Shown piece after piece: positions 1,862-59,696 of a DNA stretch of 64,000 nt. The notes below the pieces were generated by a model. The model was not told the DNA's origin. It made no database searches and saw nothing but the letters and a program-made list of their open reading frames with translations. This stretch comes from Candolleomyces eurysporus (taxonomy: Eukaryota > Basidiomycota > Agaricomycetes > Agaricales > Psathyrellaceae), in assembly GCA_027579435.1 (NCBI GenBank), contig JANBPK010000920.1:216351-280350 (forward strand), in the 5' to 3' direction. The translations under genes were made by a program, and so were the position numbers. Within the stretch, counting starts at the first letter, position 1. Each line of letters opens with the position of its first letter.

Positions 1862-3902
1862 TCATGGACGAATCTGGGACTTTTGAATCTTAGTCCTATT
1901 CTTGTAGAATGCCCTGTCGGCCGAATTGCAAAACCGGTCGGAATCTGAACTGATACGATACCACCACCTTGGCCCAGATAACCCCAGATGACGCTGAAAA
2001 GGACGGCTCCAAATTTTACATACTGGACTGCAGCGATACCATGGGCACTAAAGATGAAAGATGAAAGAAGATCGAGTATCAGTCTAGGGCTCGTAAAAGC
2101 TTGAGGACTGCACGCACCGAGATGTGAACCCCTCGGAAGACCTGCCAGAGGGGCTCAGCGTCCTCGTTTGCGATGGCCGAAGACACCCACCAATCAGCGC
2201 TGGCTGATGTAGCAAAGGCCCCAGAGAGTGGGTGGTCTCTTGAACCCAAATCTATGCGTGGTGGCCATTGGATCAAAAATCCGAGGAAACTGTCTGGGTA
2301 TGAAAACTGGGCATCACAGCCCCCTTCAATATCGCCGTATCAGATCTTTACTGTGAAAAAGAGACAGGCGAAATCACCGGAAAAAAACTCACTTGCACAC
2401 GCCCGATTGAATCGATCCCAGAGAAAGTCAAGCAGCTCGTCGAATCCACAATACAGCCTCCCGCAACGGTCACGGTCATCGAGATAATCGACCAGCGATT
2501 TGTGGTAAACGCCATATTCAGTCGTCCCCTGGTCACTGAGAGGTGGGATCCGAATTAACGAGTGAAGGCTTCCGAGCAAGTATTCCGCCTCGCTAGGCCT
2601 CGTTCCGAACAACAGATTGATATTGTGAGCAGATTCGACTACTCCGCCATACAGATATATGCCACCAATCCACCTCACTGAAAGAGCCGTGTCTGGACTT
2701 GATTCCAGGATATGGGAATAAAGCGAATCGAGCTGCTCGAACGGGTTTGATGTTGTCGTCGATTTCATTTCCAGAATCGATTGAAGCTGGTCGTCTGGAT
2801 GTGCTTTTGGAGATTCAGCAATATACCGGATGACGGTTGCGGCGTAGATGAATTGTCTCGACGCGTTCCTCACCAACGTTTGAATGACTTCTACGGACGG
2901 CCAGGAAGGAGGAAGGTTGTACCGACGACGGATTTGGCTGAACTGGGCTTCCAAAAAGAGGGTAATGTCAGCGTCGACCTCGTAATCTTCATGCAGATCG
3001 AGCTTGTGGCTGAAAGGGGTGGAATTGTTTTGGGGGTCGAAGAATTCGCGAAATACCCGCTCTGGACGACTAGCGATGAGAATACGGAAGGGAAAGGATG
3101 GATGCAATGCCGCTGTTTGAAGAACCTCGAGAATTTCCAGCTGGTCTTGTTCGCTTGTTCGTGGTGGCCGGGATTTCGATCCAATGTCATGATACTGCTC
3201 GGCCTCGCATTCGTCAAGCCCGTCGATAATGATAGCTCCCCGAAGGTCAGAGCCGTTGGGACGACCCGCAATCTCCTGGAGAGGTCCCAAAACGAGGACT
3301 TCCATCTGTACGTGCAGGTTCTTGTCGAAAATGTCTGAATTTGCGTCGATCGCTTTCGATATCTCTTCTCGTAGATGGGGATAATTTCGCGCCAGCTGGT
3401 GTGCGAGAGTAACCACAAAGGCAGTCTTCCGGCGCCTGCCAATCGATGCTGACCATGATGCGAAGAAGAAGGTCGCTCCCAGCACTCCACCCGCTTTGCA
3501 GCGCTCAGAGAGTGATCCCATGACTGCCGTCTTCCCGGTCCCTGCAGGCCCCGTCACCCACTTTATCTTCTTTGGGTGCTCAGACTCTACTTCTTGATCC
3601 ACGATCCAGCCGTACAAGTCTTCTTGCACAGCGACTCGAGTATCTAGGTGACACTTTGGCGCATCACAGCGCTCGGCGGAGTCGTGAATGGCTCCGGCGA
3701 CGATTCGAGATTCGAGCTCTACAGATTATGCATAATTATGGCCAAAGTTGGTCAGTGTCAATGTAGCCGCGTTCATAATAGCCTCAGCGTACATACCCTT
3801 TAGGGGGCCAACTCTCGAGGAGGAAGAGGATACGTTTGTGACATTGATTTTGAGTTTATCGACCTGGAAGTCACGAGCGCCTTCAAGGATATTGTTTGCC
3901 AT
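1862..3902 (-). CDS. NACHT NTPase (NLR-like) N1, intact, four exons
   Basis: Model: complement(join(1862..2047,2118..2323,2393..3718,3797..3902)), 607 residues. Exon 1 (35 codons) is the leader with ARDFQVDKLKINV. Exon 2 starts with the pre-NACHT signature IHDSAERCDAPKCHLDTR, then Walker A GPAGTGKT (about residues 92-99), Walker B AIIIDGLDECE (about 198-208), the sensor segment FRILIASRPERVFREFF, and the winged-helix end YGVYHKSLVDYL. Exon 3 carries RGCDAQFSYPDSF and SADWW. Exon 4 opens with C-x4-C-x3-C (CPWYRCSPVC, residue 547 on) and ends in a basic tail (KIQKSQIRP). Introns of 78, 69 and 70 bp have GT..AG ends and keep phase 1, 1 and 0. The inner ATG at 3902 was chosen because it aligns with the start of other copies; the upstream in-frame Met is not conserved. 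The family binds ATP/GTP and oligomerises on activation. The ligand is unknown and no sensor repeats are visible. Confidence 0.9.
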
Positions 3903-3964
3903 GAGGGGTCCAGTGAGGGGAGGGAGATAATATTGTGGTTGCGTGTAATCTCGCAATGGGCTCA

Positions 3965-4036
3965 CAGCAAACCGCGTGTTGTCCTGCAGGTGACTGAGGC
4001 TGGCATGTTTGGTGATATGTTTGTCGAGCGTCTAGC
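3965..4036 (-). promoter_or_regulatory. Conserved upstream block of N1
   Basis: About 60-135 bp upstream of the N1 start codon. On the plus strand it holds GTTTGTCGAGCGTCTAGC, the core found in front of nearly every NACHT copy in the window (consensus GTTTGTTGAGCGTCTAACG), and a CGCGTGTTGTCC segment akin to the CCGCCTCGTGTTGG of the others. Its position suggests a core promoter or 5' UTR element; no TATA box was picked out. Confidence 0.5.
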
Positions 4037-4859: not shown

Positions 4860-5985
4860 TTACGGATGATTCTGGGACAACCCTATTGCCCTGCGAACCA
4901 AATTCCAGAGCCGCTGCAAGTCTGTGCTACGACGTGGCCACAACAATCTAGGTGCGATCCAGGCAGCTGATCCCAAACGCTGCAGGATGGAACGACTCCA
5001 AATCCTACACGATGGCTTGCAATAATACTAGGGGCACTAAAACTGAGAGATAAAAGGAAATTGAATCAGTCTCAACCTGAGGTTTGGATTAGATCGACGA
5101 TTGCACGCCCTGAGACATGAACACCCTGGAAGAGCCTCCGGAAGGATCCAGCCGCCTTGTGTGAGATGGCCAAGGACACCCACTAGTCAGCGCTAGCTGG
5201 TAGAAGAAAAACCTTAGAGTAACCGCTGGCCAAAGGCATATTTGTGGTAAATGGAAAGCTGGCTNAAAAATCCGAGGAAGCTTTTCAGGTAAAAATGCTG
5301 GGTATCACAACCCCTTCGATATCATAGCATCAAAAGAGAAACAAAGACTAGAACCGCACTGGGAGATGGGATCCGGATTAGCGAATGAAGGTTTCCGAGC
5401 AAGTGCTCAGCTTCGCTACCGTCCATTTGCAAAAGCAGATGTATGCTGGAAGCATATGATGAATGTAGGATATCATTCAACCTTTGGATACTGCGGATCC
5501 ACATACCGAAAGAGGCGGAAATGGGCTCGACTCCAGGATGTGGGAGTACGAAATATCGTGTGTTTCAATGGATTTGAATTTAGTGTCGCTCGCATCTTCA
5601 AGATAGCCTCGAGCAAAGCCTTCAAAGGTTCTTGATGACCCATGTCAAGAAATCGGATGACAGTTCCTGCATGAATGAATTCACCCGACGCATTCTCCAC
5701 CAACGTTTCAATGGCTCTCGGCAATGGCTAAGAGGGAAGGAGGTGATAACGACGACGAATTCGGTTGAACTGGGATTCGAGGGTGATGTCAGCATCAGCG
5801 TCATATTCTTCGCGCAGATCGACCTTGTCGGCGAGAGGGATAGCATTATTCTCTGAGTCAAAGAACTAGAGAAATACGCGCTCGGGACAGCTGGCAATGA
5901 GGACACGGAAGGGAAAAGATGGAACTGACGATGCTGCTTAAAGAACTTGAAGAATTTCTAGCTGGTCTTGGTCTTTGTTTGTGGT
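4860..5985 (-). pseudogene. NACHT pseudogene N3
   Basis: The order of parts is that of an N1-type gene but the 5' half (leader, Walker A, Walker B) is missing. From right to left one can read a QDQLEI counterpart, the IASCPERVF sensor segment followed by a stop, an ADIT..LESQFN segment lacking the two residues LF, then SGEFIHAGTVIRFLDMGH and EAEHLLGNLHSLIRIP. An exon 3 trace lies at about 5090-5290, with an N at 5265. Exon 4 at 4860-5036 has an in-frame TAG in place of the Trp of CPWYC, but the tail is still readable (KPSCRIWSRSILQRLGSA). The CpG-type changes (Arg to Cys or stop) match those in N4. Confidence 0.8.
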
Positions 5986-6114: not shown

Positions 6115-7564
6115 TTACAACAGCGTCTTTGTAACCAGCCTTGTAAATGCCTCACTTTCTTTTATAGATTGACCCCGCCAGAGTGGCCACCACACTCCAG
6201 GAGCAATCCAAGTAGCTGATCCTAAACGACGCAGAATGGAATGGCTCCATATTTTGCATGCTGGCTTGCAACGATACCAAGGGCACTAGAGGTCAGAGAT
6301 AGAGGAAGAATTTCAGATCAGGGTTTGAAAAAGCATGGCAACTTAACACGCACTGAACGATGAAGATCCCGGAATATATGCCAGAGAGAGTGATGCGCGT
6401 GGAGTGCGATGGCTGACAACACCCACCAGTCAGCACTAGCTGGTGTAGGAAGAATGATGGAGTGCGCACTCCCCTCTGACAAATTCATACCCCATGATGA
6501 TGTAAGTAGGACCAGGAACCTCAGGAAGTTGTCTGAGTATGGAAAATGGGCAGTGCTCCCCCCTTCAGATTCATGGCGTCAGAGAAGTAACAATGAAGAA
6601 GAAAGCAAAATCAAACTCACTTTCACACATCCAAATGAATTGGTCCCAGATAAGTACCTTAACTTCCCTGTTTTCAATGTACAGGCCTTTGCTATGGTGA
6701 GCGTCCTCTAGGAAGTCAAGCAGTGATTTATGGTAAAAGCCATATTTAGTCGACTCCTGATTGCTGGGAGGTGGAATCTGAATCAACAAGTGAAGGTTTT
6801 CCAGCAAGTGCTCTGCCTTGTTGCTCTGTGGGTCTCTCTGCATGAGCATATTCATGTTGGAAGCAGAGGTTCCTTTGAAAAGACTGAGCAGGTCTATGGC
6901 ATAAATCCACCATACCGAAGANGGGGGGATCTGGACTTGACTCCAAGATATGCCTGTACAATGCGTCCAAATGTTCAAGTGGGTGCAAAGTTGTATTTGC
7001 TCCCATGTTCAAAATCGCCTCGAGCAAGACTTTTGGAGGTTCTCAGTGACCTGTGTCCAGGAAACGAATGATGGTTGCGGCATAAATGAATTGCCCTGAT
7101 GCATTCTCCACCAAAGTTTGAATGGCTCCTGGAGGTGGCCATGAGGAAAGAAGGTTGTGTTGACGACAAAGTTGATTAAACTGGACCTCTAAGAAGAGGG
7201 TAATGTCGGAATCAGCATTGTAATATTTGTGCAAATTGAGTTTCTGGGCAAAGGGATTGGGTCTGTTTTCAGGGCCAAAGAATTCGCAAAACACGCATTT
7301 GGGACAACTGGCAATGAGTATACAGAAGGGAAAGCATGGATCCGACAATGTGGCATGAAGAACTTGGAGGACTTCCAGCTGGTCTTGGTCGTTTGCCTGT
7401 GGTGGAAGCAACTTGGATTTTGATCCCGTGGCTGTAGTATCATGGTATTGCTCAGCTTTACATTCGGCCAAACCATCAATGATGACAGTGCCCCACAAAC
7501 CAGGTACATCGGGATGGCGTGAAATCTCCTGTAGAGGACCCAGAACGAGGACTTCCATTTGCGT

Positions 7565-13403: not shown

Positions 13404-13715
13404 TGCATCATTATGGACTATCCTGGGACTCGAGAGCCGACTCCTTGGTGTCCTTGATAGTGTCGACCAACGAGAAGAACCGTTCCTTCTGAGAATTGCT
13501 ACGACCCTGCCGCCACCGGCCAGATGATTTCAAACGACCCAAAATAGAACGGCTCGAGTATGCATGCCGGCCTGCGACGATACCAGAGGAACTAAGAAAT
13601 GACTGAGGATTGGACGTACTGAAGCATGAACCTCCCGAAAGATTGCCCAGAGAGACTCATCCTTCTCGAGTGTGATGGCCAACGACACCCACCAATCAGC
13701 GCTAGCCCACCAACT
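13404..13715 (-). pseudogene. NACHT 3'-end fragment N5 (exon 3 and 4 remnant)
   Basis: Immediately downstream of N6 lies a second, decayed copy of a NACHT 3' end. It holds SADWWVSLAITLEKDE near 13630-13715 and an exon 4 remnant whose first Cys codons are altered (LWYRRRPAC). It shares the repeat sequence of N6 exon 3 with a sharp join at about 13710-13730, which points to unequal crossing-over or a local tandem duplication. Confidence 0.7.
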
Positions 13716-13730
13716 TGACCCACTCTGAGT

Positions 13731-15767
13731 TTAGGATTGCCCCCGCTCGACGTTCTTTATTGCCTTCAGAATCAGCCGTTCAAATCGTGCATCTTGTGAT
13801 AACAAGGCACCCCTCCCGAATCGTAATGGCCACAAAATGCCAGGTGCGACCGACGTTGCTGATCCTAAACGACGCAGAATGGCATGGCTCCAGATTCTAC
13901 ACGCCGGCTTGCAACGATACCACGGGCACTTAGGTGAGGAATGAAATTCAATATAAGGTTTGACAAAGGTTGAGGACTGCACATACTGAATGGTGGACCT
14001 TCCTGAAGACATCCCTGAGGGATCTATCCGCCTTGTGTGTGATGGCCAATAATGCCCACCAATCAGCACTAGCATGGGTAGGGACCTCAGAGTATGCGGC
14101 GCCCGGCAGCATGATTGCGTCGTATGGAAGCCAGGCTAAGAATGGGAGAAAGCTTTCCGGATATGAAACTTGGGCCACATCGCATCCCCCTTCGCCACCG
14201 TTGTGTCAGGTTCGCGCTGTGAAAGAGACAAAGGCCAAAGCAAAAATGAACTCACACGCACACGCCCGAATGAATCTATCCCAGAAAAACGCCATAATGT
14301 CCCTCCATTCAACGTACAATTTCCCACAGCGGCCGGGATCGATGAGGAAGTCGAATAGTGATTTGTGGTAAATTTCGTATCTAGTTGTGACCTGGTCGCT
14401 GGGAGGAGGGATCTGAATCAATGAGTGAAGGTTCCCGAGCAAGTGCTCAACCTCATTACTCTCCGGGTCCGTTTGCAGAAGCAGAGTGACGTTGGAAGCT
14501 ACGGACAGCTCGCGAACGGAAATGATTGCGTAAGTAGAGCACCAGCTGATAGTCTGAATCCATCGTATCGAAAGAGGTGGATCTGGACTGGACTCCAAGA
14601 TGTGCGAGTACAATGCATCAAGTTGTTGAAGTGGATTTGAAGTGGTTATATTAGTCCCTTCCATTTTCAGAATAGTCTCTAGTAAGACCTTCGGAGATTC
14701 TCGATGACCCTTGTCGAGAAACCGGATGACGGTTGCGGCGTAGATGAATTGGCCCGATGCCTTCTCAACCAAGGTCTGGATCGTTCCTGGTGGTGGCCAT
14801 GGGGAAGGAAAGCGATAACGACGACAAAGGATATTAAACTGGGCTTCCAAAAAGAGGGCGATATCGGTGTTGGCGTTGTAGTCTTCGTTCAAATCGAGCT
14901 TGTGGGCAAAGGCGGTAGGATTGTTTTCGGTGTCAAAGAATTCACGAAATGTGCGCTCGGGACGGCTGGCGATGAGGATACGAAAGGGAAAATATGGATC
15001 CGATGCTGCTGCTTGAAGAACTTGGAGGATCTCCAACTGATCTTGGGCGTTTTCTCTTGCGAATTTGCCCTCGAGGCCAGTGCTTGTGATATCGTGGTAT
15101 TGCTCAGCCTCGCATTCATCCAGACCGTCAATGATAATGGCGCCCCGCAACCCAGGTCTGTTGGGATGGCGTGAGATCTCCTGAAGAGGGCCCAGGATGA
15201 GGACTTCCATCTGCGTGTGCAGATTCTTGTCGAAAATGTCTGAATTTGCGGCGATCGCTTTGGATATCTCTTCTCGCAGATCGGGATGATATCGCGCGAG
15301 CTGGTGTGCGATGGTAGTTATGAATGCGGTCTTGCGGCGCCTGCCAACTGATGCTGACCAGGACGCAAAGAAGAACGTCGCTGCGAGCACACCATCCGTT
15401 TTGCAGCGTCCAGACAGCGATCCCATGACAGCCGTCTTCCCAGTACCCGCGGGCCCAGTGACCCACTTGATCTTCTTTGGCTGATCAGATTCCCTATCTC
15501 CATCGACAATCCAGCCATACAAATCGTCCTGGACAGCAACGCGAGTTTCGGGATGGCATTTAGGAGCATCGCAGCGCTCTGCGGAATCGTGGATGGCACC
15601 TGCTGCGATTCGGGCCTCGAGCTCTGTCCATCACGACGGGCGTCAGCTGAACACGGGAAGACAGCACTAGGAGCAGACTGACTTTCCAAAGGGTTTATTG
15701 TGGGGTTTTCGTTGACAACGAATTTATCGATGCGGAAATCCTGAGCGCGGTCGAAGATTCTTGTCAT
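13731..15767 (-). CDS. NACHT NTPase (NLR-like) N6, intact
   Basis: Model: complement(join(13731..13928,13987..14189,14256..15623,15683..15767)), 617 residues. The leader is MTRIFDRAQDFRIDKFVV. Walker A GPAGTGKT lies near residue 85 and Walker B AIIIDGLDECE near 191. The signature reads IHDSAERCDAPKCHPETR. The variable window after PLSIRWI reads TISWCSTYAIISVREL. Exon 3 starts with WGCDVAQVSYPESF and contains SADWW. Exon 4 is CPWYRCKPACRIWSHAILRR (residue 553 on), then the tail SVAPGILWPLR and FERLILKAIKNV. The tail belongs to the class with an APGxLWP segment. Donors are GTCAGT, GTGAGT and GTATGT. The upstream in-frame Met at 15824 is rejected because it has no counterpart in other copies. 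Confidence 0.9.
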
Positions 15768-16796: not shown

Positions 16797-18811
16797 TCAT
16801 ACTCTCTTCATCGCCTTCTCGAACAACCGTTCAAATGGCGCATTGTCTTCTATATAATGACCCTGTCGTAATGGCCACAACATACCAGGTGCAATCCAAG
16901 TGGCCGATCCCAGCTGACGCAGAATGGAACGGCTCCAGGTTCTACAAGCAGAACTGCAACGATAGCGGGGGCACTGAAAATGAGCAAGATAGATTAACTC
17001 AAGGTCCGAGGTTGGGAAGATTGAGTACTGTACGCACTGCGTTGTGAACTCCCCGGAAGACGTCCCAGAGCGATCGGCACTCCTTGTGTGCAATGGCCAA
17101 AGATACCCACCAATCAGCACTAGTTGATGTACAATGGGACCCGGAGTGCGTCCTCCCCAAAGATATGTCTACGGCGTATGGAAGGTTGACCAAGAATTCG
17201 AGAAAGCTTTCCGGGTGAGAAAACTGAGTGTCGCAACCCCCTTCAATATCACAACGTCAGATTTATGCTGCGTAAGGAATACAGAAAGTCGAAGCGAAAT
17301 CGGGCTCACTTGTACATGCCCGATTAAATCGATCCCAGAGAAACACCAGAATCTTCTCGTGTTGATACAGTTGCCCGCAACGACCACGGTTATCGAGAAA
17401 ATCGAATAATGACTTGTGGTAAAAGCTGTATTGAGTCGTCGCTTGTTTACTAGGAGATGGGACTTGAACAAGGGAGTGAAGATTCCCGAGTAAGTGCTCA
17501 GCCTCGCTACTCTCTGAGTCTGTTTGAAGAAGCAGGTTAATGTTGGAAGCAGCGCGCAGGGTGTCGGAAATGAGCGGGGCGTTGCGAATTGCGCTAATAG
17601 CACGAATCCACCGCACCGAAAGAGGTGGGTCTGGACTGGACTCCAAGATGTGTGTGTATAGCGCGTCGAGTTGCTCAAATGGGTTTGAAGTTGTTTCTCG
17701 GGTTGCCTTCATAGTCAAAATAGCGTCAAGCAAGGCCTTCGGAGGCTCTCGGTGTCCCATTTCAAGAAATCGGACGACGGTTGCTGCATAAACGAATTGG
17801 CCCGACGCATTCTTCACCAGGGTTTGAATCGCTCCATGTGGTGGCCATGAAGACGGGAGGTTGTAACGACGACGAATGAGATTGAACTGGGCTTGGAGGA
17901 AGAAGTAAATGTCGGCTTCGGCATTGTATTCTTCATGTAAATCGAGTTTGCGGGCAAAGGAGAAGGCAGCGTTTTGTGGATCGAAGAATTCGCGGAATAC
18001 ACGTTCTGGGCGGCTGGCAATGAGGATACGGAAGGGGAAGGCTGGATCTAACAATGCTTGGAGCAGAACTTGCAGGATTTCTAACTGGTCTTGAGCGTTT
18101 GTCCGTGCTGAAGTGGGCTTGACTTTTGATCCAGTGTTTGTCGTGTCGTGAGATCGCTCGACCTCGCATTCATCTACGCCGTCAACTACGATAATCCCCC
18201 GCAATCCGCCATTGGAACTATCTGCAACTGCTCGGAGTGGCTCCAGGATGAGCGTCTCCATCTGAACATGAAGATTCTTCTTGAAAACGATGGAATCAGC
18301 CTCGATAGCTGCGGCGACTGCGTCCTTCAAGTCTTGTCGGTGTTGAGCCAACTGATGAGCAATGGTCGTTACGAAGGCGGTCTTCGTACGACGACCAATA
18401 GACCCTGTCGATGAAAAGAAGAAAGAGGCTACTGGAAAACCGTTTTTTTTGCACCGCTCTGTGAGCGATCCCATAACGGCGGTTTTGCCAGTGCCTGCAG
18501 GCCCAGTAACCCAGTTCATCTTGCACGGGTTTTGCGCGTCTCCATGCTCGATCCAGCCGTATAAATCGTCTTGTAAGGCGACTCTAGTCTCAGGATGGCA
18601 TTTTGGAGCATCGCAGCGTTCAGCAGAGTCGTACAAGGCCTCTGGTGCGATGAGAGCCTCAAGCTCTGAATATCACAATAGCTTAGTCAAACACTCGAGT
18701 AGAGACTCATGAAGAGCACTCACTTTCTAATGGGCTTGCCGAAGGGTGTCCATTGAAAACCTGGAAGTTATCGATGCGGAAATCCTGGGCCCGGTCCAAT
18801 ATTCTTGCCAT
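16797..18811 (-). CDS. NACHT NTPase (NLR-like) N7, intact
   Basis: Model: complement(join(16797..16973,17038..17240,17310..18665,18724..18811)), 607 residues. The leader is MARILDRAQDFRIDNFQVF. Together with N9 it forms a subtype: the segment after Walker A reads MGSLTERCKKNGFPVASFFF and STGSIGRRTKTAF, one residue block shorter than in the SLSERC subtype, and the linker before Walker A is WIEHGDAQNP. Walker B is GIIVVDGVDECE. Exon 3 starts RGCDTQFSHPESF and contains SADWW. Exon 4 (residue 550 on) has CPRYRCSSACRTWSRSILR, the APGMLWPLR segment and a short end FEKAMKRV. The intron 2 donor is GTGAGC. No convergent F-box is recognisable, unlike for most copies. Confidence 0.9.
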
Positions 18812-22349: not shown

Positions 22350-24380
22350 TTATGGAGGACTCTGGGAGTTGGAGGTCTTCAGCACAACGCTTGCCTTCTT
22401 GACCAATCTACCAAACCGGGAATTCGACGTTGGTTCCATACCAGTGCCCCGTCGCACTGGCCACAACAGGCCAGGTGCAATCCGGGTAGGTGATCCCAGA
22501 TGACGCAGAATGGAACGGCTCCAAGCCCTACACGCTGGTTTGCAGCAATACCAGGGGCACTAAAGATAAAAGATAGAACGAGATTCTGAGTTTCGGTCCA
22601 AGGTTTGGAAAATAGTGAGGAATGCACCCACTGAAATGTGAACCCCCTGGAAGACATATAAGAGGGATCCCACGTTCTCGTTGACAATGGCCAACGACAC
22701 CCACCAATCTACAACAGCGGGCGCAGGAGACATCGTGGAGTGCCCCATGCCCTTAGACAGATCTATGTAGCCTGGAAGAAGGCGCAAGACTCGAAGAAAG
22801 CTTTCCCGGGATGAAAACTGGGTATTACTGCACACTTTAGGATAATATTGTTAAATTCATCTTGCCGAAGAGAAACCAAGACACCGGACCCACTTGTACA
22901 CGCCCGAATGAATCTGTCCCAGATAAACTCGCTAATATCATCAAGAGACCACTCCCCACAACGGTCAGGATCCCTGAGGAAGTCGAGCAATGATCTGTGG
23001 TAAAAATTGTATCCAGCTGTCGCCCGGTCGCTGGGAGGAATCTGAATCAACGAGTGAAGATTTCCGAGCAAGTGCTCAGCCTCGTTACTCTCCGGGTCCG
23101 TTTGCAGGAGCATATTCACGTTCAACGCAGAGGCGCCCACAATACTCATCCAGCTGATAGCGCGAATCCACCGTATTGAAAGAGGTGGATTTGGACTGGA
23201 CCCCAAGATGTGCATGTACAGGGCGTCCAGCTGTTCGAGTGGGTTTGAAGCTGGCTTCCGAGTGGCTTCCATCTTCAAAATAGCCTCAAGCAAGACCTTC
23301 GGAGGCTCTTGATGACCCATGTCGAGAAACCGGAGGACAGTTGAGGCGTAAATGAATTGGCCTGATGCCTTCTCAACCAAGATCTGGATGGTTCCCTGGG
23401 GCGGCCACGATAGGGGGAGGTGATGACGACGACGAATTTGATTGAACTGGGCTTCGAGGAAGAGAGTAATGTCGGCGTCGGCGTTGTAATCTTCGTGCAG
23501 ATCGAGTTTCTGGGCGAGAAGGGTGGGGTTGTTTTCGGGATCGAAGAATTCGCGAAAAACGCGCTCGGGACGACTCGCAATGAGGAGACGAAAGGGAAAA
23601 GATGGATCCGATGATGCTGCTTGAAGAACTTGGAGAATCTCCAACTGGTCTTGGGCGTTCGTTCGTGCGGGTTTGCCCCGTGGGCCCGTGGTTGTGGTAT
23701 CGTGGTATTGTTCAGCTTCGCATTCGTCCAGACCATCAATGATGATAGCACCCTGCAGCCCTGTCCCATCGGACTGACAGACGGCCTCCCGGACTGGGGA
23801 CAGAATGAGAATTTCCATTTGTACGTGGAGATTCTTCTCAAAAATGCCTGGGTTCTTCTCGATAGCAGTGGAGATGGCCTTCTTCAGTTCCTCTCGGTGC
23901 TGGGCCAGCTGATGTGCAATGGTTGTAACGAAGGCGGTCTTCCGGCGCCGGCCAATGGATGCTGACCAGGATGCAAAGAAGAACGTTGCACCTAAATGAC
24001 CGTTCGCTGCACACCGATCTGCCAACGAACCCATAACAGCCGTCTTCCCGGAACCTGCAGGTCCCGTCACCCATTTTATCTTCTTTGGATGCTCAGATTC
24101 CCCGTCGTCGTCCACAATCCAGCTGTACAAGTCGTCTTGGACAGCAACTCGAGTATCGGGATGGCACTTTGGAGCATCGCAGCGCTCCCTGGAGTCGTGG
24201 ATCGCGCCCGCTGCGATTTCAGCCTGGAGTTCTGTATATCGCAGTAAGGACCAACGGAGACGCTCAGCTACGGCACCACAAGCCAGACTTACTGTTCAGT
24301 GGGTCTGCTGAGGAGTTCACATTCACGAAGTGGTAGTTGTCGATATTGAAATTGTGAGCGTTGTTGAAGTTGCTGGCCAT
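22350..24380 (-). CDS. NACHT NTPase (NLR-like) N8, intact
   Basis: Model: complement(join(22350..22559,22632..22834,22894..24231,24293..24380)), 612 residues. The leader is the most divergent of the intact set, MASNFNNAHNFNIDNYHFV. With N10 and N15 it belongs to a subtype with Walker A GPAGSGKT and MGSLADRCAANG. Walker B is AIIIDGLDECE. Exon 3 starts MCSNTQFSSRESF and has VVDWW in place of SADWW. Exon 4 (residue 544 on) is CPWYCCKPACRAWSRSILRH with the APGLLWPVRR tail and FGRLVKKASVVL. The intron 2 donor is GTGGGT. The pre-NACHT signature has HDSRERCDAPKC. The convergent partner is the F-box pseudogene ending near 22130. Confidence 0.9.
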
Positions 24381-38963: not shown

Positions 38964-41126
38964 CTATCGCCTTAGACGTTTCTGAGAATTGGAGTTCCTC
39001 TCTGCATTGGCGTTTGACAAAGAAGACGCGTTTGAATACTCTGCAACAATAACTGCTGCTCCCGACGCCTTCCTCTTGACGCCCTTACTTGTCTTCTCAA
39101 CTATGCCATGAGCCTGTTCCTGCTGTGCGCTCTCTCTTGCCTTCTCCACCAAACCAAAAAACTGCCTCCGCTGTGACTCGCTACGATCTAGCCAAGCGTC
39201 AGATGATCCCAAATGACCGAGAATTGAACGGCTCCAGATTCTACAAGCCCGCTTGCAACAATTCCAGGGGCACTAAAGATGAAGGATAAAGGAAGATTGA
39301 GTTTGACTCCGAGTTTGGAAACAATCGAGGGATGCACATACCGAAGCGTGAACCCTCTTGAACATGTACCAGAGAGGCCAATCTTCCCTGTACCCAATGG
39401 CCAACGACACCCACCAATCAGCGCTGGCTGGTGTAGGAAGGGTCCCGGGGTGTGTGCTGCCCTCACACAATGTTGTGTCGGATGGAAGGCAGGCCAAGAA
39501 TGCAAGGAACCTTTCTGGGAATGAAACGTGGGGCACATCGCATCCCCCTTCAAGACCATTGTGTCAGATTTGCACTACGAAAGAGACACCAAAACTAAAG
39601 CAAAAATAAACTCACTTGCAGATGCCCGAATGAATCTATCCCAGACAAACGTCTGAATGTCAGCCCATTTAACATACAATTTCCCACAACGGTGACTGTC
39701 TTCGAGGAAGTCAATCAATGATTTATGGTAAAAGTCGTATCTAGCTGGCACCTGATCGCTGGGAGGTATCTTAATCAGCGAGTGGAGGTTGCCGAGCAAG
39801 TGCTCAGCCTCGTTACCATCCGGGTCGGTTTGCAGAAGCAGATTGATGTTGGAAGCTACGGATAGGTTGAGAATGGAATTGTCCTCGTGAGTAGAGTACC
39901 AGGAGATGGTCTGAATCCACCGTATCGAAAGAGGCGGTTCTGGGCTTGACTCCAAGATGTGCGAGTACAACGCATCAAGTTGTTCAAGTGGGTTTGAGGC
40001 GGTTGTCCGAGTTGTTTCCATCTTCAAAATCGCCTCCAGCAAGACCTTTGGAGGTTCTCGACGACCCGAGTCAAGGACCCGGATGACGGTTGCGGCGTAG
40101 ATAAATTGGCCCGATGCATTCCTTACCAGAGTTTGAATGACTCCTAGGGGTGGCCATGAGGAAGGAAGCTGATAACGACGACGAAGTCGATTAAACTGGG
40201 CTTCGAGAAAGAGGGTAATGTCAGCGTCGGCGTTATACTCTTCGTGTAAATCGAGTTTGTGGGCAAAGGTGATAGGAGTGTTTTCGGGATCGAAGAATTC
40301 GCGAAATACGCGCTCGGGACGGCTGGCGATGATGATACGGAAAGGAAAGGACGAGTCTGACGATGCTGCTTGAAGAACTTGGAGGATTTCTATCTGGTCG
40401 TCGGCGTCCTTTCGAGCAAGTTTGCCCCGCGCGTTGGAAATTGTGGTATCGTGGTATTGCTCTGCCTCGCATTCATCCAGACCATCAATGATGATAGCAC
40501 CCCGTAAAACAGGTCTGTCGGGATGACGTGCGATTTCCTGTAGAGGACCTAGGACGAGGACCTCCATCTGCGTGTGGAGATTTTTGTCGAAAACGTCCGA
40601 ATTTGCGTCGACCGCTTTGGATATCTCGTCTCGCAGATCGGGATGGTATCGCGCGAGCTGGTGTGCAATGGTAGCTACAAGGGCAGTCTTGCGGCGCCTG
40701 CCAATCGACGCTGACCACGACGCAAAGAAGAACGTCGCTGCGAGCACTCCACCTGATTTGCAGCGTTCGGACAGGGATCCCATAACAGCTGTCTTCCCAG
40801 TACCCGCCGGCCCAGTAACCCACTTTATCTTCTTCGGCCGGTCAGGTTCCTCGTCCCCATCCACGATCCAGCTGTACAAGTCGTCCTGAACGGCAACGCG
40901 AGTGTCGGGATGGCATTTCGGAGCATCGCAGCGCTCCCTAGAGTCGTGGATGGCGCCCGCTGCGATCTCAGCCTTGAGTCCTTCACATCACAACAGGTTA
41001 ATCGAGTGCTCGAGTAGAGACCCACGAGGAAGACTGACTGTCCAACGGGTTTGCCCAAGGGTTTCCACTGAAAACCTGGAAGTTATCGATGTGGAAATCG
41101 TGGGCGCGGTCAAAATTTCTTGCCAT
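38964..41126 (-). CDS. NACHT NTPase (NLR-like) N13, intact, basic tail
   Basis: Model: complement(join(38964..39272,39342..39547,39616..40980,41039..41126)), 655 residues. Leader MARNFDRAHDFHIDNFQVF. Walker A GPAGTGKT and Walker B AIIIDGLDECE. The variable window reads TISWYSTHEDNSILNLSV. Exon 2 begins RLKAEIAAGAIHDSRERC; its acceptor (GTGAAG) differs from the usual TATACAG and is the least certain boundary. Exon 3 starts RGCDVPHVSFPERF and has SADWW. Exon 4 (residue 554 on) is CPWNCCKRACRIWSRSILGH, followed by DRSESQRRQFFGLVEKARES, a linker, and the end NSNSQKRLRR. The tail is rich in Lys, Arg and Gln and could form a coiled helix plus a nuclear localisation signal. Confidence 0.9.
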
Positions 41127-41718: not shown

Positions 41719-43872
41719 TTATCGCCATGAAGGTTTCTGGGACTTGGAGGTCTTCTTTGCCTGCGGGTTTGATGAAGAGGAGGCGGTTGAAGACTCTGCG
41801 GGTGCTTCCAACACCCTCTCCTTGATGACCTTTCTTGCCTTCTCAAACAAGCTGTGCTCCTGCTGCATGTCCTCTCTTGCCTTCTGGATCAAATCCAAAA
41901 ACTGGGACTCCTTGAGACCGCTACAAGCTCGCCGCGCATTCAAAAATCCCAAACGACACAGAATGGGACCGCTCCAGATTCTACAAGCCGGCTTGCAATC
42001 ATTCAGGCGGCACTGAAGGTGAAAGACAAAAGAAGGTTGAGTTTGATTCCAGGGTCTGGAAACAATTGAGGGCGGCACATACTGAATAATGAACACATTC
42101 GAAAAGCTTCCAGAGGGATCGATCTTCATTGCGCGTAATGGCCAACGACACCCACCAATCAGCGCTGGCTGGTGCAGGAAGGATCTTAGAATATGCCCCT
42201 CCCCACATCACTGAGTCAATTGGAAGGCGGGCCAAGAATTGGAGGAAGGTATCTGGGAATGAAAGCTGGGTCGCATTGCATCCTCCTTCAGTGCCATTGT
42301 GTCAGAATCGTGCTGTAGAAGAGGCATAAGGACTAAAGCAAAAGATAAACTCACTTGCACATGCCCGAATGAATCTGTCCCAGATAAACACTAGGAAGTC
42401 ATCCCATGCAAAGTGCAGTTTCCCGCAGCGTTCATCGTCTTTGATAAAGTCGATTAGTGATCTGTGGTAAAATTTGTATCTAGTTGTCGCCTGATCACGG
42501 GGAGGAGGGACCTGAATCAATGAGTGAAGGTTCCCGAGCAAATGCTCAGCTTCGTTACTCTCTTGGTCCGTTTGCAGAAGTAGATTGATGGTGGAAGCTA
42601 CACACATGGTACGAATGGACACAAATGTGCCAGCACAGAACCATTCGATAGTCCGGATCCACCGTATTGAAAGAGGTGGATCTGGACTTGACTCCAAGAT
42701 GTGCGAGTACAGCGCATCAAGTTGTTTGAGTGGGTTCGAGGTAGCTTTCCGAGTCGCATTCATCTTTAAAATAGCCTCTAGCAAAGCCTTCGGAGGTTCT
42801 CGCTGACCCTTGTCAAGATACCGGATCACGGTTGCGGCGTAGATGAACTGGCCCGACGCATTCTTCACCAGAGTTTGAATGGTTCCTGGCGGAGGCCACG
42901 AGGAAAGAAGGCCGTGGCGACGACGAAGTCGATTGAACTGGGCTTCCAGGAAGAGAGTTATGTCAGCATCGGCGTTGTATTCTTCGTGTAAATCGAGTTT
43001 CTGGGCGAAGGGGGCAGGACTGGTTTCAGGGTCAAAGAATTCGCGAAATACGCGCTCGGGACGGCTGGCAATGATAATACGGAAGGGGAAGGAAGGATCC
43101 AACGATGCTTTTTGAAGAACTTGGAGGATTTCCAGCTGGTCCTGATCGTTTGTTCGTGCTAGCAGGGATTCAAATTTTGATCCAGTAGCTGTAGTGTCGT
43201 GGTATTGCTCGGCCTCGCATTCATCCACACCGTCAATGATGATGGCGCCCCGCAAACTAGGCCTGTCGCGATGATGTGCGATTTTCTGGAGAGGACCCAG
43301 AACGAGGACTTCCATCTGCGTGTGCAGTCTTTTGTTGAAAATGTCTGAGTTCGCGTCGATTGCTTTAGATATCTCTTCCCGCAGATCAGGATCGTATCGC
43401 GCGAGCTGGTGTGCGAGGGTAGTCACAAGTGCGGTCTTCCGGCGCCTGCCAATCGATGCTGACCACGATGCGAAGAAGAATGTCGCTGCGAGCACTCCAC
43501 CTGCTTCACAGCGTTCGGACAGCGATCCCATGATAGCCGTCTTCCCAGTACCCGCGGGCCCAGTAACCCACTTGATTTTCTTCGGCTGATCAGGTTCCCC
43601 ATCCACGATCCAACTGTACAAGTCGTCCTGTACGGCGACGCGAGTGTCGGGATGGCATTTCGGAGCATCGCAACACTCTGCGGAGTCGTAGATGGCGCCT
43701 GCTGCGGCTTGGGCCTCGAGCTCTGTAGAATACGACAGGGTCAGTCAAATACTGGATTACAGCAAGACCAAGCAGACTGACTTTCTAAGGGATTTGATGA
43801 GGGGTACCCACCAAAAACCTGGAAGTTATCGATACGGAAATCCTGGGCACGGTCGAAGATTTTTGCTGCCAT
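41719..43872 (-). CDS. NACHT NTPase (NLR-like) N14, intact, basic tail
   Basis: Model: complement(join(41719..42012,42083..42285,42355..43722,43782..43872)), 651 residues. Leader MAAKIFDRAQDFRIDNFQVF, with one extra residue near the start. The linker before Walker A is shortened (VDGEPDQPKK). Walker A GPAGTGKTAIMG, Walker B AIIIDGVDECE. The variable window reads TIEWFCAGTFVSIRTMCV. The pre-NACHT signature is IYDSAECCDAPKC. Exon 3 starts RGCNATQLSFPDTF with SADWW. Exon 4 (residue 555 on) is CRLNDCKPACRIWSGPILCR: the Pro after the first Cys and the aromatic are lost but all three Cys remain. The tail has FEKARKVIKERV, a Ser run and KKTSKSQKPSWR. The only F-box trace in front is the convergent spacer at about 41590-41680. 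Confidence 0.92.
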
Positions 43873-44622: not shown

Positions 44623-46618
44623 CTATTCCTGCTGTGCGTCCTGTATTACCTTCTTGACCAAACCGTCAAACCTTTCCCCCTGTGAATCGCTAGTACGATC
44701 CCACCACGACATGCTAGACAATCCCAAACGACCCATAATGGAACCGCTCCAAATTCTACACGCCGGTTTGCAACGATACCAGGGGCACTAATAATTAAGG
44801 ATAAAGGAATATCCAAGTTGAGCTTCAGACCAAGGTTTCGAACAGATTGAGGACTGTACGCACCGAGGTGTGAACTCCCCGGAAGATATGCGAGAGGGAT
44901 CCATCCATGCGGTGTGCGATGGCCAACGACACCCACCAATCGGAGCTGACAGGTGTAGGAAGGGCCTCAGAGTGTGCGCTGGCCATATTCAGAGTTGTGT
45001 AGCCTGGAACGTAGGCCAAAAATTCGAGAAAGCGTTCCGTATACGAAAGCTGGGTATCACAGCCCCCTTCAATATCATAACATCAGATTCCGTGAAAGAG
45101 AAACCAGATCAAAGGAAAAAATCAAACTCACTGATACATGCCCGAACAAACCCATCCCAGATGAAGATGGTGATTTTACGCTCTTCAGTATACAGTTTCC
45201 CGCAACGGTCGGGGTCTTCGAGAAAGTCGAACAGCGATTTGTGGTAAAAGCGGTATTGATCCGTCCCCTGGTCGCTGGGAGGCGGTATCCTAATCAGCGA
45301 GTGGAGATTTCCGAGCAAGTGCTCAGCCTCGTTGCTCTCTGGGTCTGTCTGTAGGAGCATATTTATGTTGAAAGCAGAGGCGTCGTACATAATGTTGACA
45401 GCGCGAATCCATCGCACCGAAAGAGGCGGATCTGGACTGGACTCCAAGATATGCATGTACAAGGCGTCCAGCTGTTCGAGTGGGTTTGAAGTTGTTTTCC
45501 GAGCTGCTCCCATCTTCAAAATGGCCTCGAGCAAAGCCTTCGGAGGCTCTTGATGACCCATATCGAGAAACCGGACGACGGTTGCGGCATAGATAAATTG
45601 GCCCGATGCATTCTCCACCAAGGTCTGGATCGTTCCTGACGGTGGCCACGAGGAAGAAAGGTGATAGCGACGACGAAGGAGATTGAACTGGGCGTCCAGG
45701 AAGAGAATAATGTCATCGTCAGCGTTGTAATCTTCGTGCAGATCGAGCTTCTGGGCAAAGGATCCGGGGTCGTTCTCTGAATCAAAGAATTCACGGAATA
45801 CACGTTCTGGACGGCTAGCGATGAGGATGCGAAAGGGAAAGGAGAGATCTGAAGATGCTGCTTGAAGAACTTGAAGGATCTCCAACTGGTCCTGCGCGTT
45901 TGTTCGGGCGGGCTTGGTCCGCGAGACTGTACTCGTGGTATCATGGTATTGCTCGGCCTCACATTCGTCCACCCCGTCGATGATGATAGCACCCTGCAGC
46001 CGTGGTTGATCGGATTGAATCGCCACCTCGCGCAATGGGGCAAGAACGAGTATTTCCATCTGCACGTGTAAATTCTTCTCGAAAACGCTCGGGCTCTTTT
46101 CGATAGCGGTTGAAATCGCGCGCTTCAAGTCCTCTCGATAATCAGCCAGTTGGCGTGCAATGGTTGCGACGAAGGCGGTCTTACGACGCCGGCCAATCGA
46201 TGCTGACCAGGAGGCAAAGAAGAAGGTTGCTCCCAAGAGCCCATTCACTGCGCATCGATCTGCCAGAGATCCCATAATGGCCGTCTTGCCGGAGCCTGCA
46301 GGCCCAGTAACCCACTTAATCTTCCTGGGTTGTTCCGATGCTTCGTCGCCATCGACGATCCAGTGGTACAAGTCGTCTTGGACAGCGACTCGCGTCTCTG
46401 GATGGCATCTCGGGGCGTCACAGCGCTCTGCGGAGTCGTGGATGGCGCCAGCTGCAATTCGAGCCTCGAGCTCTGTATATCACAGCAGGTTTGTCAAATG
46501 CTCGATTAGAGACCCAGGAGGAGAACTAACTTTCCAATGGGCTTGCCAAGGAGTGCCCATCGAAAACCTGAAAGTTATCGATGTGGATATCCTGGGCACG
46601 ATTGAAGAATCTTGCCAT
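44623..46618 (-). CDS. NACHT NTPase (NLR-like) N15, intact core, shortened tail
   Basis: Model: complement(join(44623..44787,44864..45066,45132..46472,46531..46618)), 598 residues. Leader MARFFNRAQDIHIDNFQVF. Subtype GPAGSGKTAIMGSLADRCAVNG; Walker B AIIIDGVDECE. The variable window is short (AVNIMYDASAFNI). Exon 3 starts RGCDTQLSYTERF and has SSDWW. Exon 4 (residue 545 on) is CPWYRCKPACRIWSGSIMGR with DSQGERFDGLVKKVIQDAQQE, then TAG at 44623-44625. In N13 the matching codon is Gln in QQEQAHG, so a C-to-T change may have cut off about 37 residues. The frame after it runs on to a stop at 44509-44511 with KAQDSKSQNHP. The short protein keeps the Cys module but not the basic end. Confidence 0.87.
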
Positions 46619-50456: not shown

Positions 50457-52639
50457 TTATAGCCTTGGACGTTTCTGAAACCCGGAGCTCCCCTTTGTCT
50501 TGGGGTTTGACGAAGAAGAGGTATTTGAAGACTCTGCAGCAGTGGCCGCTGCCCCCGACACCCTCCTCTTGATGCCCTTTCTTATCTTCTCAACCGAGCC
50601 TTGAACCTGTTCCTGCCATGCGCTCCCCTGCCATGTGCTCTCTCTTGCCTCCCAAATTAGATCGAAAAACCGTCTTTGCTGTGACCGGCTACGATTAAGC
50701 CAAGCGTCACTTGATCCCAAACGACGCAGAATGGGAAAGCTCCAAATTCTACAAGCCGGCTTGCAACAATTCTGGGGGCACTAAAGAAGAATAAAAGAAA
50801 ATTGAATTTCAACTCCAAGGTCTGGAAGCAATTAGGACCGCACATACTGAAGCGTGAACATTTTTGAACAGTTCCCAGAGAGAGCCGTACTCAAAGCGCG
50901 TAATAGCCAACAACACCCACCAATCAGCGCTGGCTGGTGTAGGAATGCACTCGGAATGTGCATCGCCCCACACCACTGCGCCAATTGGAAGGCGGGCCAA
51001 GAATTGGAGGAAGCTTTCTGGGAATGAAGGCTGGGTCGTATCGCATCCCCCTTTGGTACCAATGTGTCAGATTTGTGCTGTAGAAGAGGTACAAGGGCTA
51101 AAGCAAAAAGTAGACGCACTTGCGCATGCCCGGATGAACCTATCCCAGAGAAATGCCTGGACATTTCTCCCTTCAACGTACCATTTCCCGCAACGGTTCT
51201 CATCTTCGAGGAAGTCGATCAGTGATTTGTGGTAAAAGTCGTATCTAGCTGCTGCCTGATCAGAGGGAGGAGGGATCCGAATTAATGAGTGAAGGTTCCC
51301 CAGCAAATGCTCAGCCTCGTTACTCTCCGGGTCCGTTTGCAGAAGCAGATTGATGGTGGAAGCTAAGCATAGGGTGGAAATGAACGGGAGTGGGTGAGTA
51401 GAGAGCCAGTCAATAGTCAGAATCCACCGTATTGAAAGAGGTGGATCTGGACTTGACTCCAAGATGTGCGAGTACAACACATCAAGTTGTTCGAGTGGGT
51501 TTGAGGAAGCTTTCCGAGTCGCATCCATCTTTAAAATAGCCGCTAGCAAAGCCTTCGGAGGTTCTCGCTGACCCGAGTCAAGATACCGGATCACGGTTGC
51601 GGCGTAGATGAACTGGCCTGATGCATTCTTCACCAGAGTCTGAATGGTTCCTGGCGGAGGCCACGAGGAAAGAAGGCCATGACGACGACGAAGTCGATTG
51701 AACTGGGCTTCCAGGAAGAGAGTGATGTCAGCATCGGCATTGTAATCTTCGTGTAAATTGAGTTTATGGGCGAAGGGAGCAGGACTGGTTTCAGGGTCAA
51801 AGAATTCGCGAAATACGCGCTCGGGACGGCTGGCAATGATAATACGGAAGGGGAAGGATGGATCCAACGATGCTTTTTGAAGGACTTGAAGAATCTCCCC
51901 CTGGTCCTGGTCGTTCGTTCGTGGTGGAAGGGATCTAGATTTCGATCCAGTAGCTGTGGTATCGTGGTATTGCTCGGCCTCGCATTCATCCAGACCGTCA
52001 ACGATGATAGCGCCCCGCAAACTGGGTCTGCCAGGGTGACGTGCGAGTTCTTGTAGAGGACCTAGGATGAGAACTTCCATCTGCGTGTGCAGATTTTTGT
52101 CGAAAATGTCCGAATTCGCGTCGACCGCTTTGGATATCTCGTCTCGCAGATCGGAATCATATCGCGCGAGCTGGTGTGCGATGGTAGTTACAAGGGCAGT
52201 CTTGCGGCGCCTGCCGATCGATGCCGACCACGAAGCGAAGAAGAAGGTCGCTGCGAGCACTCCACACGCTTTGCAGCGTCCAGACAGTGATCCCATAACA
52301 GCCGTCTTCCCGGTACCCGCCGGCCCAGTAACCCACTTGATCTTCTTCGGCTGGTCAGATTCCTCATCCCCATCCACGATCCAGCTGTACAAGTCGTCCT
52401 GGACGGCGACGCGAGTGTCAGGATGGCATTTTGGAGCATCGCAGCGCTCTGCAGAATCATGGATGGCGGCTGCTGCAATTCGGGCCTCGAGCTCTGTATC
52501 TCACAACAAGTCAGTCGAGCGCTTCAAAAGAGACCCACGAGGAAGACTGACTTTCCAATGGGTTCTCCCAAGGGTGTCCATTGAAAACCTGCAAGTTATC
52601 AATGCGAAAATCGTGAGCGCGGTCAAAGTTTCTCGCCAT
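50457..52639 (-). CDS. NACHT NTPase (NLR-like) N16, intact, longest basic tail
   Basis: Model: complement(join(50457..50780,50848..51050,51120..52493,52552..52639)), 662 residues, the longest of the set. Leader MARNFDRAHDFRIDNLQVF. Walker A GPAGTGKT, Walker B AIIVDGLDECE. The variable window reads TIDWLSTHPLPFISTLCL. Exon 3 starts RGCDTTQPSFPESF, with SADWW. Exon 4 (residue 556 on) is CPQNCCKPACRIWSFPILRR, then NRSRSQQRRFFDLIWEARES, VEKIRKGIKRRVSG, a Ser run and FQKRPRL. A short in-tail duplication (STWQGSAWQEQ, encoded near 50605-50640) is specific to this copy. The intron 2 donor is GTGCGT. Exon 2 is very close to that of N12, including the segment FDKNLHTQMEVLILGPLQEL. Confidence 0.92.
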
Positions 52640-57155: not shown

Positions 57156-57654
57156 TGAGCTTGAGCCGATATGGATTGTTACCGGCTGTCTTTCGAGTCA
57201 GTCGTTTCCAACCAACGTCATTCACACGACGGTGTACTGGAGCGGTGGGCCATCAAATCGTCTCTCTTGTACTAACGGCTCATGACTCGTACCAGAATTC
57301 TGGTGTACCCTTCGATTCCTGGATTTCTACACGCCACCTAATGACAAAAATGGACAGCTGAAACTGATGGACGTGTCGACGACGACGACGAGAGCGACGA
57401 GAGGAGACTATTCAAGGTATGTGATTGACTGAAGCCTTAATGTAAGTAGATACAGTAGAGAATATATATACTTAAAGTCTGTGGAGTAAAGAATAGGAGT
57501 TTGTGAGACGTATGATGAAATGCTGGAGTGATGAGAGCATCGACAAGTATTAAACCTACTAATGATACTCGACACCTAAACCAGTATATAATAGTACAGA
57601 CGAATTCTCCTACTGTGACCATCAACACGGACAAAAGAGAATAAAAATTTATCA

Positions 57655-59696
57655 TTATAGACGATTCTGGGGCTTGGGGTTCCTCTTGGCGGCCTTGATT
57701 GCCTTATTAATCAATGAGTCAACCCGCTTCCACTGCGCCCCGCTACGGTCCCGCCACAACACTCCAGGTGCAATCCGAGTACCGGATCCTAAATGATGCA
57801 GAATGGAACAGCTCCAGATTCGGCATGAATGCTTACAACGATACCAGGGGCACTAAAGATGAGAGATAAAGTAAGATTGGTTTCATTCGTAGATGTTTGA
57901 AAGAGATTGAGGACTGCACGCACTGATATATGAACACCCTGGAAGATCTCCCGTAGCGATCCAACTGCCTTGTGTGAGATAGCCAGCGACACCCACCAAT
58001 CAGCGCTAGCCGGCGTAGGAAGGGCCTCGGGGTGTGCGCTGACCAAAGCCATGTTTAGGACATATGGAAGGCCGGCCAAGAATCTGGGAAAGCTTTCTGC
58101 GCATGAAAGCTGGGTACAACAGAACCCTTCAACATCATAACATCAGATTCATCTCGTGAAAGAGAACCGAAGACCAGGGCAGAAACAAACTCACTTGCAC
58201 ACACCCGATTGAATCGATCCCATAGAAACCCAGAAATTTCCCCGTCTTGAAGATGCAGTTTCCCGCAACGCTTAGTGTCCTCGAGGAAGTCGAGTAGTGA
58301 TTTGTGGTAGAAGGTATATTCAGCCGTCGTCTGGTCACTGAGAGGTGGGATCCGGACTAGTGAATGAAGGTTTCCGAGCAAGTGTTCTGCCTCGTTGCCC
58401 TCCGGGTCTGTTTGCAAAAGGCAATGTATATTGGAGGCACATGGGCGCTGGACAGCTTTCAAAAGATCGATACTGTGGATCCACAATACCGAAAGGCGTG
58501 GATCTGGACTCGACTCCAAAATATGCATATACAATGCGTCAAGTTGTTCAAGCGGGTTTNGAAGCAGTTTTCCAAGTCGCTTCCATCTTTATAATAGCCT
58601 TGAGTAAAGCCTCCGGAGGCTCTCGATGATGAGTAGCGAGAAACCTGATGACTGTTGCGGCGTAAATGAATTGCCCCGACGCATTCTTCAGCAGAGTTTG
58701 AATCGCTCCGCGTGGTGGCCATGAAGACGGGAGGTTGTAACGGCGGCGAAGTCGATCAAACTGGGCTTCAAGGAATATGGTGATGTCAGCGTCGGCGTTG
58801 TAATCCTCATGCAAATCGAGTTTGTGGGAAAAGGGGGTAGGACTATTGTCGGAAAAGAACTCGCGAAATACGCGCTCGGGACGACTGGCGATGATGACCC
58901 GGAAGGGAAACGATGGATCTGACGATGCTGCTTGAAGAACTTGAAGGATTTCCAGCTGGTCTTGGTCGTTCGTTCGTAGTGGAAAGCACTTCGGTTTCGA
59001 TCCGATAGCCGTAGTATCATGGTATTGCTCGGCCTCGCATTCGTCCAGACCATCAATGATGATTGCGCCGCACAAACCAGGTCTAACGGGGCGACGTGCG
59101 ATCTCCCGTAGCGGACCCAGGATGAGGATTTCCAGCTGTATACACAGACTTTTGTCGAAAATGTCCGAATCTGTCTCCATTGCTTTGTATATCTCTTCTC
59201 GCAGATCAGGATGATATCGCGCCAGCTGGTGTGCGATGGTGGCTATGAAGGCGGTCTTCCGGCGCCTGCCAATCGATGGTGACCAGGATGCAAAGAAGAA
59301 CGTCGCTGCCAGCACTCCACCTGCTTTGCAGCGCTCAGACAGCGATCCCATGACAGCCGTCTTCCCAGTACCGGCGGGCCCAGTCACCCACTTGATCTTC
59401 TTCGGCTTGTCAGATTTTCCGTCCCCNGTTTACTATCCAGCCGTACAAGTCGTCCTGGACGGCGACGCGAGTATAGGGATGGCATTTCGGAGCATCGCAA
59501 CGCTCCCTAGAGTCGTGGATGGCGCCCGCTGCGATTTGGGCCTTGAGCTCTGTTTATCATGCCAAGGGTCATCAAATGCTCAAGTATAGCATTCCATGAC
59601 AGACTGACGGTCTAATGGGTTTGTTGAGGAAAGTAAATTGAAAACCTGGAAGCTGTCGATGCGGAAATCGTGAGCACCGTCGAAGCTTCCTGTCAT
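57655..59696 (-). CDS. NACHT NTPase (NLR-like) N17, intact if two N are ignored
   Basis: Model: complement(join(57655..57852,57924..58126,58195..59549,59609..59696)), 613 residues after dropping N at 58560 and 59427. Dropping the first restores ACT GCT TCA AAC CCG CTT; dropping the second restores GTA AAC GGG GAC GGA. Both then match the family sequence, so the breaks look like base-calling artefacts. Leader MTGSFDGAHDFRIDSFQVF. Walker A GPAGTGKT, Walker B AIIIDGLDECE. The variable window reads SIDLLKAVQRPCASNIHC. Exon 3 starts RFCCTQLSCAESF with SADWW. Exon 4 (residue 549 on) is CPWYRCKHSCRIWSCSILHH with APGVLWRDR, a compact Lys/Arg-rich end (INKAIKAAKRNPKPQNRL). The sensor segment has a two-residue gap after FREFF. 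Confidence 0.85.

Follow-up and report, generated by a model that had tools for sequence, protein, structure and literature searches.

We describe a short module of one histidine and three cysteines at the end of the NACHT genes that form an array in a 64,000-nucleotide (nt) stretch of Candolleomyces eurysporus DNA (contig JANBPK010000920.1, positions 216,351-280,350; parent assembly 65.85 Mb), hereafter called the window. The histidine stands near the end of exon 3 and the cysteines open exon 4, and the motif H-x2-C-x4-C-x3-C thus spans the last intron. It is conserved throughout the genome, sits in a recurrent gene structure with a regional pattern of selection, and occurs within the genus Candolleomyces and in one Ephemerocybe protein. 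Judging from the sequence, we consider it reasonably likely that a genuine C-terminal module, translated from the last two exons, binds one metal, likely zinc, and ends a NACHT receptor devoid of repeats. The module is probably a small zinc-held helical fold placed where other such receptors carry repeats.

Conservation of the histidine and the three cysteines

Walker A motifs mark 12 NACHT copies in the window, between 3551 and 59381, and every copy lies on the minus strand. All 12 show DWW, H-x2, a short GT-AG intron and then exon 4 with C-x4-C-x3-C, as the first-pass annotation of this DNA had proposed; the two variants it quoted, CRLNDCKPAC and CPQNCCKPAC, are read in the copies at 42012 and 50780. 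A 13th copy (YHKS at 6735) has an intact module, and no Walker A match was found in it. The three window copies scanned with Pfam all scored above the cut-off for PF24883 (NPHP3_N) and PF05729 (NACHT), and contain the NACHT-type P-loop NTPase domain that characterizes NACHT/STAND (signal transduction ATPases with numerous domains) proteins resembling NOD-like receptors (NLRs).

A genome search gave 110 matches, from which 66 stretches were taken, mostly by similarity to exon 3 and not to exon 4. Together, 15 exon 3/exon 4 pairs from the window and 68 from these stretches make 83 pairs, in which the histidine is present in 82, the three cysteines in 81, 82 and 83, WW in 80, the donor GT in 80 and the acceptor AG in 78. 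Ligands are missing in a second copy at locus L082 (stop at Cys 1, no acceptor), in L091 (masked base, shifted frame) and in a frame-shifted window copy, and L033 may read H-x3-C. Exon 4 was found downstream of 84 of the 85 exon 3 matches above 10 bits (two of the 85 being halves of one frame-shifted copy); the sole exception is an extra partial copy near 13.7 kb. Among 44 representatives below 70% identity, entropy is lowest at the four ligand columns and at a phenylalanine at position -7. In 69 clean copies both synonymous codons are used at the histidine and at every cysteine, indicating that it is the protein that is kept.

Two pairs of loci, L031/L032 and L074/L075, have near-identical modules on different contigs, perhaps representing two nuclear haplotypes. 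Tandem double modules were seen at L072 and L082, in both of which the second lacks the AG acceptor.

Other elements of the original description were less constant. In the supposedly invariant DWW, the aspartate is replaced by E, N, V or H in some copies, by Q or S in diverged loci, by R in the protein P0121 and by G in P0023, and L109 has L in place of the second tryptophan. The distance to the histidine, given as about 30 residues, also needs correction, since the second tryptophan stands 21 positions ahead of it in 73 of the 80 pairs. A cysteine near the start of exon 3, which had been counted in the module, occurs in 72 of 83 pairs and is absent from diverged copies such as L092 and L094; we rejected it as a fifth ligand. 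A cysteine following ILRH (ILRHC) in a diverged branch is likewise not part of the core, being absent from most of the window's branch. The x4 spacing between the first two cysteines is kept in the window copies, and becomes x5 in L048, L113, L117-L119, P0059 and P0121.

Free variation of the cysteines in wider homologues, named beforehand as grounds for abandoning the idea, was not seen. In 36 aligned diverse modules, with identity to the first sequence down to 20%, one tryptophan, the histidine and the three cysteines are the only invariant columns. When the genome of the window was searched with the tail of P0121, a protein of Ephemerocybe angulata with the full module (ARWW..VHEPCPIFYRCSDACKRW), 45 matches reached E 1 or better. 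Forty-two of them extend into the cysteine part; of these 42 exon-4-like sequences, 18 are associated with an entry in a list of 68 NACHT matches, one inside it and the rest 378-441 nt downstream. All 20 diverged loci taken show the histidine and three cysteines (18 recovered by script, L105 and L115 read by eye, with an uncertain H-C spacing in L105); they were found through exon 4 and were therefore selected for the cysteines, not for the histidine. We therefore added three loci for which NACHT similarity to P0121 was the sole criterion; all three keep H-x2-C-x5-C-x3-C, with loss of the tryptophan that follows the third cysteine.

In a protein search, the best 120 of 2,376 matches were nearly all Candolleomyces or metagenome records, with one from Ephemerocybe. 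With the search confined to the C-terminus of Ephemerocybe proteins, 1 of 84 and 2 of 45 candidates were obtained. Tails of the CxWYRCxPACKRWR kind are presumably present in many agaricomycete NACHT proteins, an assumption of ours that none of the searches made here confirmed.

A candidate metal site and its alternatives

In the AlphaFold2 model of P0023, His 504 ends a helix (494-504) and the third cysteine of the motif, Cys 516, stands on the next (514-526); in that of P0121, His 558 ends helix 544-558 and the third cysteine, Cys 571, stands on helix 569-581, both at low confidence. The order of one histidine followed by three cysteines, as in TAZ domains, is present in the sequence itself, and its helix-loop-helix placement comes from these low-confidence models. 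Splicing, metal, fold contacts, sensing and signalling are our inferences. A helix bearing the tryptophan pair would lead to a second helix ending in the histidine, a loop would supply Cys 1 and Cys 2, and a third helix (RIWS..ILR or KLWR..IL) would carry Cys 3 at its start. The motif H-x2-C-x4/5-C-x3-C could then bind one metal ion, most likely zinc, and staple two helices together, closing a C-terminal helical arm after the NACHT domain.

Family searches returned no name for this module. Pfam gave 0 families at E up to 10 for the 167-residue tail (exons 3-4) of one window copy, and nine single-member matches (E 0.0044-0.15) for the 36 modules, with no repeat family among them; none of the C-terminal repeats that form superstructures (LRR, WD, ANK, TPR) appeared in either scan. 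A Foldseek search against the PDB yielded, among the best 50 of 413 matches, mainly AAA+ ATPases together with two plant NLRs, with E above 0.001 throughout. The VIA-align alignment spans residues 53-282 and hardly covers the module, so that nothing follows from it regarding the module's fold. We found no family in the Pfam searches made, and no earlier description in the open-licence PMC literature searched, for this NACHT NLR module, and the word zinc is absent from the main text of both PMC4986451 and PMC9815663.

The first-pass annotation suggested a small metal-binding or disulfide module standing in for the usual repeat sensor of an NLR. The conservation of the ligands, the lack of a Pfam match and the models all agree with a small His/Cys module at the end of an NLR without repeats, and the replacement of a repeat sensor by it is plausible. 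As to the chemistry, the three cysteines would permit one disulfide, or could simply be buried residues with no metal site, and the metal is itself our interpretation. However, disulfides leave unexplained a histidine as invariant as the cysteines, both in the 83 pairs and in the 36 modules, and NLRs are presumably cytosolic. Since these two points make a metal likelier than a disulfide, we regard an explanation without metal as distinctly unlikely.

The metal might also be of another kind. One histidine and three cysteines can hold iron-sulfur clusters, and the four residues, which are more conserved than those around them, might carry such a cluster or another redox-active metal by which the module senses oxidation or metal status beyond holding its fold. 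No other sign of an iron-sulfur protein turned up, although none was searched for, whereas zinc sites with one histidine and three cysteines (HCCC) in a helical bundle are known from TAZ2 of CBP, as described in PMC12022988. We give the redox alternative little credence.

Splicing, selection and possible function

The ratio of nonsynonymous to synonymous substitution rates (dN/dS) was obtained by region from 37 of the 83 copies; 41 had no single open frame holding both exon 2 motifs and 5 contained stops or N. Two sets were used, 56 close pairs of 13 sequences and 8 disjoint pairs, and the values (close pairs first) are pooled counts of related pairs, not tests of single sites. The NACHT domain (0.22; 0.18), the surroundings of DWW (SADWWVSLAI; 0.05, 0.17) and exon 4 (0.23; 0.37) are conserved. 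Intermediate values were found from the LLLQ region to YHKSL (0.42; 0.27), from YHKSL to RAC (0.68; 0.50) and in the first half of exon 3 (0.68; 0.86). The stretch before LLLQ (1.04; 0.88) and the helix before the histidine (1.68; 0.75) change fastest among close copies. The exon 2 stretch between NACHT and YHKSL (WIQIIDWFSTGSIQSIRTLSVASTV in the copy at 36 kb) is the most variable of the aligned protein, at a dN/dS of about 0.9-1.0 compared with about 0.2 in NACHT.

With regard to splicing, retention of intron 3 breaks the frame in 81 of the 83 pairs. Among 121 homologue models examined, 33 show WW..H, and 3 of these have the full site in register. The predicted models of P0121 and of P0023 and P0059, from two sister species, join H-x2 directly to the cysteine part.

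Several observations weigh against a translated metal-binding module. The remaining 30 of the 33 WW..H models lack the site in register, although P0073 and P0095 carry the cysteine part after an extra insert, and C-x4/5-C-x3-C is absent from all seven H1R20_g84xx models examined on this contig. In P0004 the acceptor joined to exon 3 lies further on. The structural models are of low confidence at the site, the block having a predicted local distance difference test (pLDDT) score of 51-77 in P0023 and 47-54 in P0121. The full module was recovered in one named protein from beyond Candolleomyces, and no single match of the P0121 tail in the window's own genome is strong (best E 3.5e-4). In the two bands of greatest divergence, dN/dS is 0.33 and 0.15 for exon 3 (26 codons) and 0.30 and 0.18 for exon 4; high exon 3 values are thus confined to close pairs, and relaxed constraint or saturation is possible.

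The first of these observations, with P0011 and P0110 joining exon 3 to later sequence as P0004 does, would be expected if exon 4 were not normally part of the protein, the acceptor lying further down or the protein ending within intron 3, and the cysteine part being optional and alternatively spliced. Against this, the acceptor AG stands at the cysteine boundary in 78 of 83 pairs, the position of intron 3 is common to diverged copies, exon 4 evolves under the constraint given above, and three models from three species do splice to the cysteine part. We find it improbable that exon 4 is optional. The protein's end is truncated or scrambled in most gene models seen, and surveys using such models would miss the module. 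That the conservation reflects merely recent tandem duplication of a functionless module, as the many close paralogues in arrays might suggest, is very improbable, given that the ligands persist where identity to the first sequence is 20-35% and also in a second genus, that their codons changed synonymously, and that a degenerate extra copy near 13.6 kb lost two of the cysteines.

If the last two exons do form a zinc-held cap, the fixed ligands may hold a frame on which the segment between WW and the histidine, the first half of exon 3 and the exon 2 stretch before LLLQ are free to change rapidly among close copies. Such an arm would probably do the work of the usual repeat domain, providing a surface for inhibition and recognition and releasing the NACHT switch when a cue binds, after which the short N-terminus would signal onward. 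A bolder proposal, which we think unlikely, is that a whole branch of mushroom NLRs swapped its repeat sensors for one zinc-stapled helical cap, with frozen ligands, a diversifying adjacent helix and an intron splitting histidine from cysteines that would let splicing toggle the cap.

The window array and comparison with known systems

The copy at 36 kb was modelled as four exons from 37698 to about 35535 on the minus strand, encoding 654 residues as read from the DNA, with introns of 65, 64 and 70 nt bordered by GT..AG (table 1). The predicted joint brings VHAS of exon 3 to CPENRCKAPC of exon 4, and no repeat domain follows the module in this model.

Table 1. Exons of the NACHT copy at 36 kb and module copies along the window
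Feature	Position	Strand	Remarks
Exon 1, 36-kb copy	37611..37698	-	gene model; 29 residues and one base, FHIDNFQVFNG
Exon 2, 36-kb copy	36172..37545	-	NPHP3_N/NACHT domain and helical region up to YHKSL..RACA; Pfam from three sister copies
Exon 3, 36-kb copy	35905..36107	-	(R)GCD..DWW..VHAS
Intron 3, 36-kb copy	35835..35904	-	70 nt, GTATGT..TTTAG; separates H-x2 from first Cys
Exon 4, 36-kb copy	35535..35834 (end approximate)	-	CPENRCKAPCRIWSYPILRRLD.. to stop
Module copy	57784..58109	-	exon 3 part 58109-57924, intron 57923-57853, exon 4 from 57852
Module copy (CPQNCCKPAC)	50712..51030	-	exon 3 part 51030-50848, intron 50847-50781, exon 4 from 50780
Module copy	44719..45049	-	exon 3 part 45049-44864, intron 44863-44788, exon 4 from 44787
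Module copy (CRLNDCKPAC)	41944..42265	-	exon 3 part 42265-42083, intron 42082-42013, exon 4 from 42012
Module copy	39204..39527	-	exon 3 part 39527-39342, intron 39341-39273, exon 4 from 39272
Module copy	28902..29229	-	exon 3 part 29229-29041, intron 29040-28971, exon 4 from 28970
Module copy	25402..25732	-	exon 3 part 25732-25547, intron 25546-25471, exon 4 from 25470
Module copy	22491..22817	-	exon 3 part 22817-22632, intron 22631-22560, exon 4 from 22559
Module copy	16905..17223	-	exon 3 part 17223-17038, intron 17037-16974, exon 4 from 16973
Module copy	13860..14169	-	exon 3 part 14169-13987, intron 13986-13929, exon 4 from 13928
Module copy, no Walker A found upstream	6217..6545	-	exon 3 part 6545-6354, intron 6353-6286, exon 4 from 6285
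Module copy	1979..2306	-	exon 3 part 2306-2118, intron 2117-2048, exon 4 from 2047
Broken module copy	4971..5296	-	stop codons at the first W of WW and within exon 4, donor GG; histidine and all three cysteine positions retained
Broken module copy	31594..31919	-	exon 3 frameshift, acceptor lost, exon 4 stop
Extra partial exon 3 (DWW at 13697)	13520..13700 (ends approximate)	-	degenerate exon 4, F and R at Cys 1 and Cys 2; read by eye

The short exon 1 is the only candidate for an N-terminal effector or signalling part in the 36-kb model. Its sequence (MARIFNRAQDFHIDNFQVFNGHS; similar in other copies) resembles the very N-terminal amyloid-like motifs that PMC9815663 describes in agaricomycete NLRs, and it may be an amyloid-like signalling motif.

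An orphan exon 4 (PPNLCKPACKMWSRSILRRLG) runs down from 63566 on the minus strand, with N in the first cysteine codon and no exon 3 found upstream. On the plus strand, an open reading frame at 54-1553 is F-box-like (Pfam E 3.8e-4, below the cut-off). Another, at 34301-34933, shares strings with it by eye and may be a remnant within the NACHT array; Pfam gave no match for it.

The NACHT expansion in this genome looks very large. A first look for PF24883 gave 1,340 candidates, and all 150 that were scored exceeded the cut-off, although the counts may contain uncollapsed haplotypes. Contigs C1212 and C1143 carry none of the listed candidates. The maximum per genome in a 2014 survey is 274, according to PMC4986451.

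Compared with known fungal NACHT NLRs and STAND NTPases, namely HET-E, NWD2 and the agaricomycete repertoires of PMC4986451 and PMC9815663, the present proteins differ in their tails, which consist of a short His/Cys module without a Pfam repeat match. Roughly half of fungal NLR C-termini have no known annotation, as stated in PMC4986451. With a recurrent module, some of these tails could be named and searched for by profile, and the metal and mutation of the four residues would offer a clear test.

Solved chains of the human MLKL four-helix bundle (e.g. 6ux8_A) hold an H-x2-C-x5-C-x3-C stretch that matches the module profile. We rejected this likeness as not significant, since E 0.59 among 177,635 sequences is likely a chance match. 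That stretch is not known to hold a metal site.

By ligand set, the closest analogues are the TAZ domains of CBP/p300, which share one histidine and three cysteines; we draw the analogy without claiming membership. In the Pfam scan of the 36 modules zf-TAZ was not among the matches up to E 1, a search that could miss distant kinship. In TAZ the histidine sits at the end of a helix, and the spacing is H-x3-C-xn-C-x4-C, unlike the H-x2-C-x4/5-C-x3-C found in nearly all copies of the module. TAZ2 of CBP has three such zinc sites, as described in PMC12022988, against one proposed in the mushroom module.

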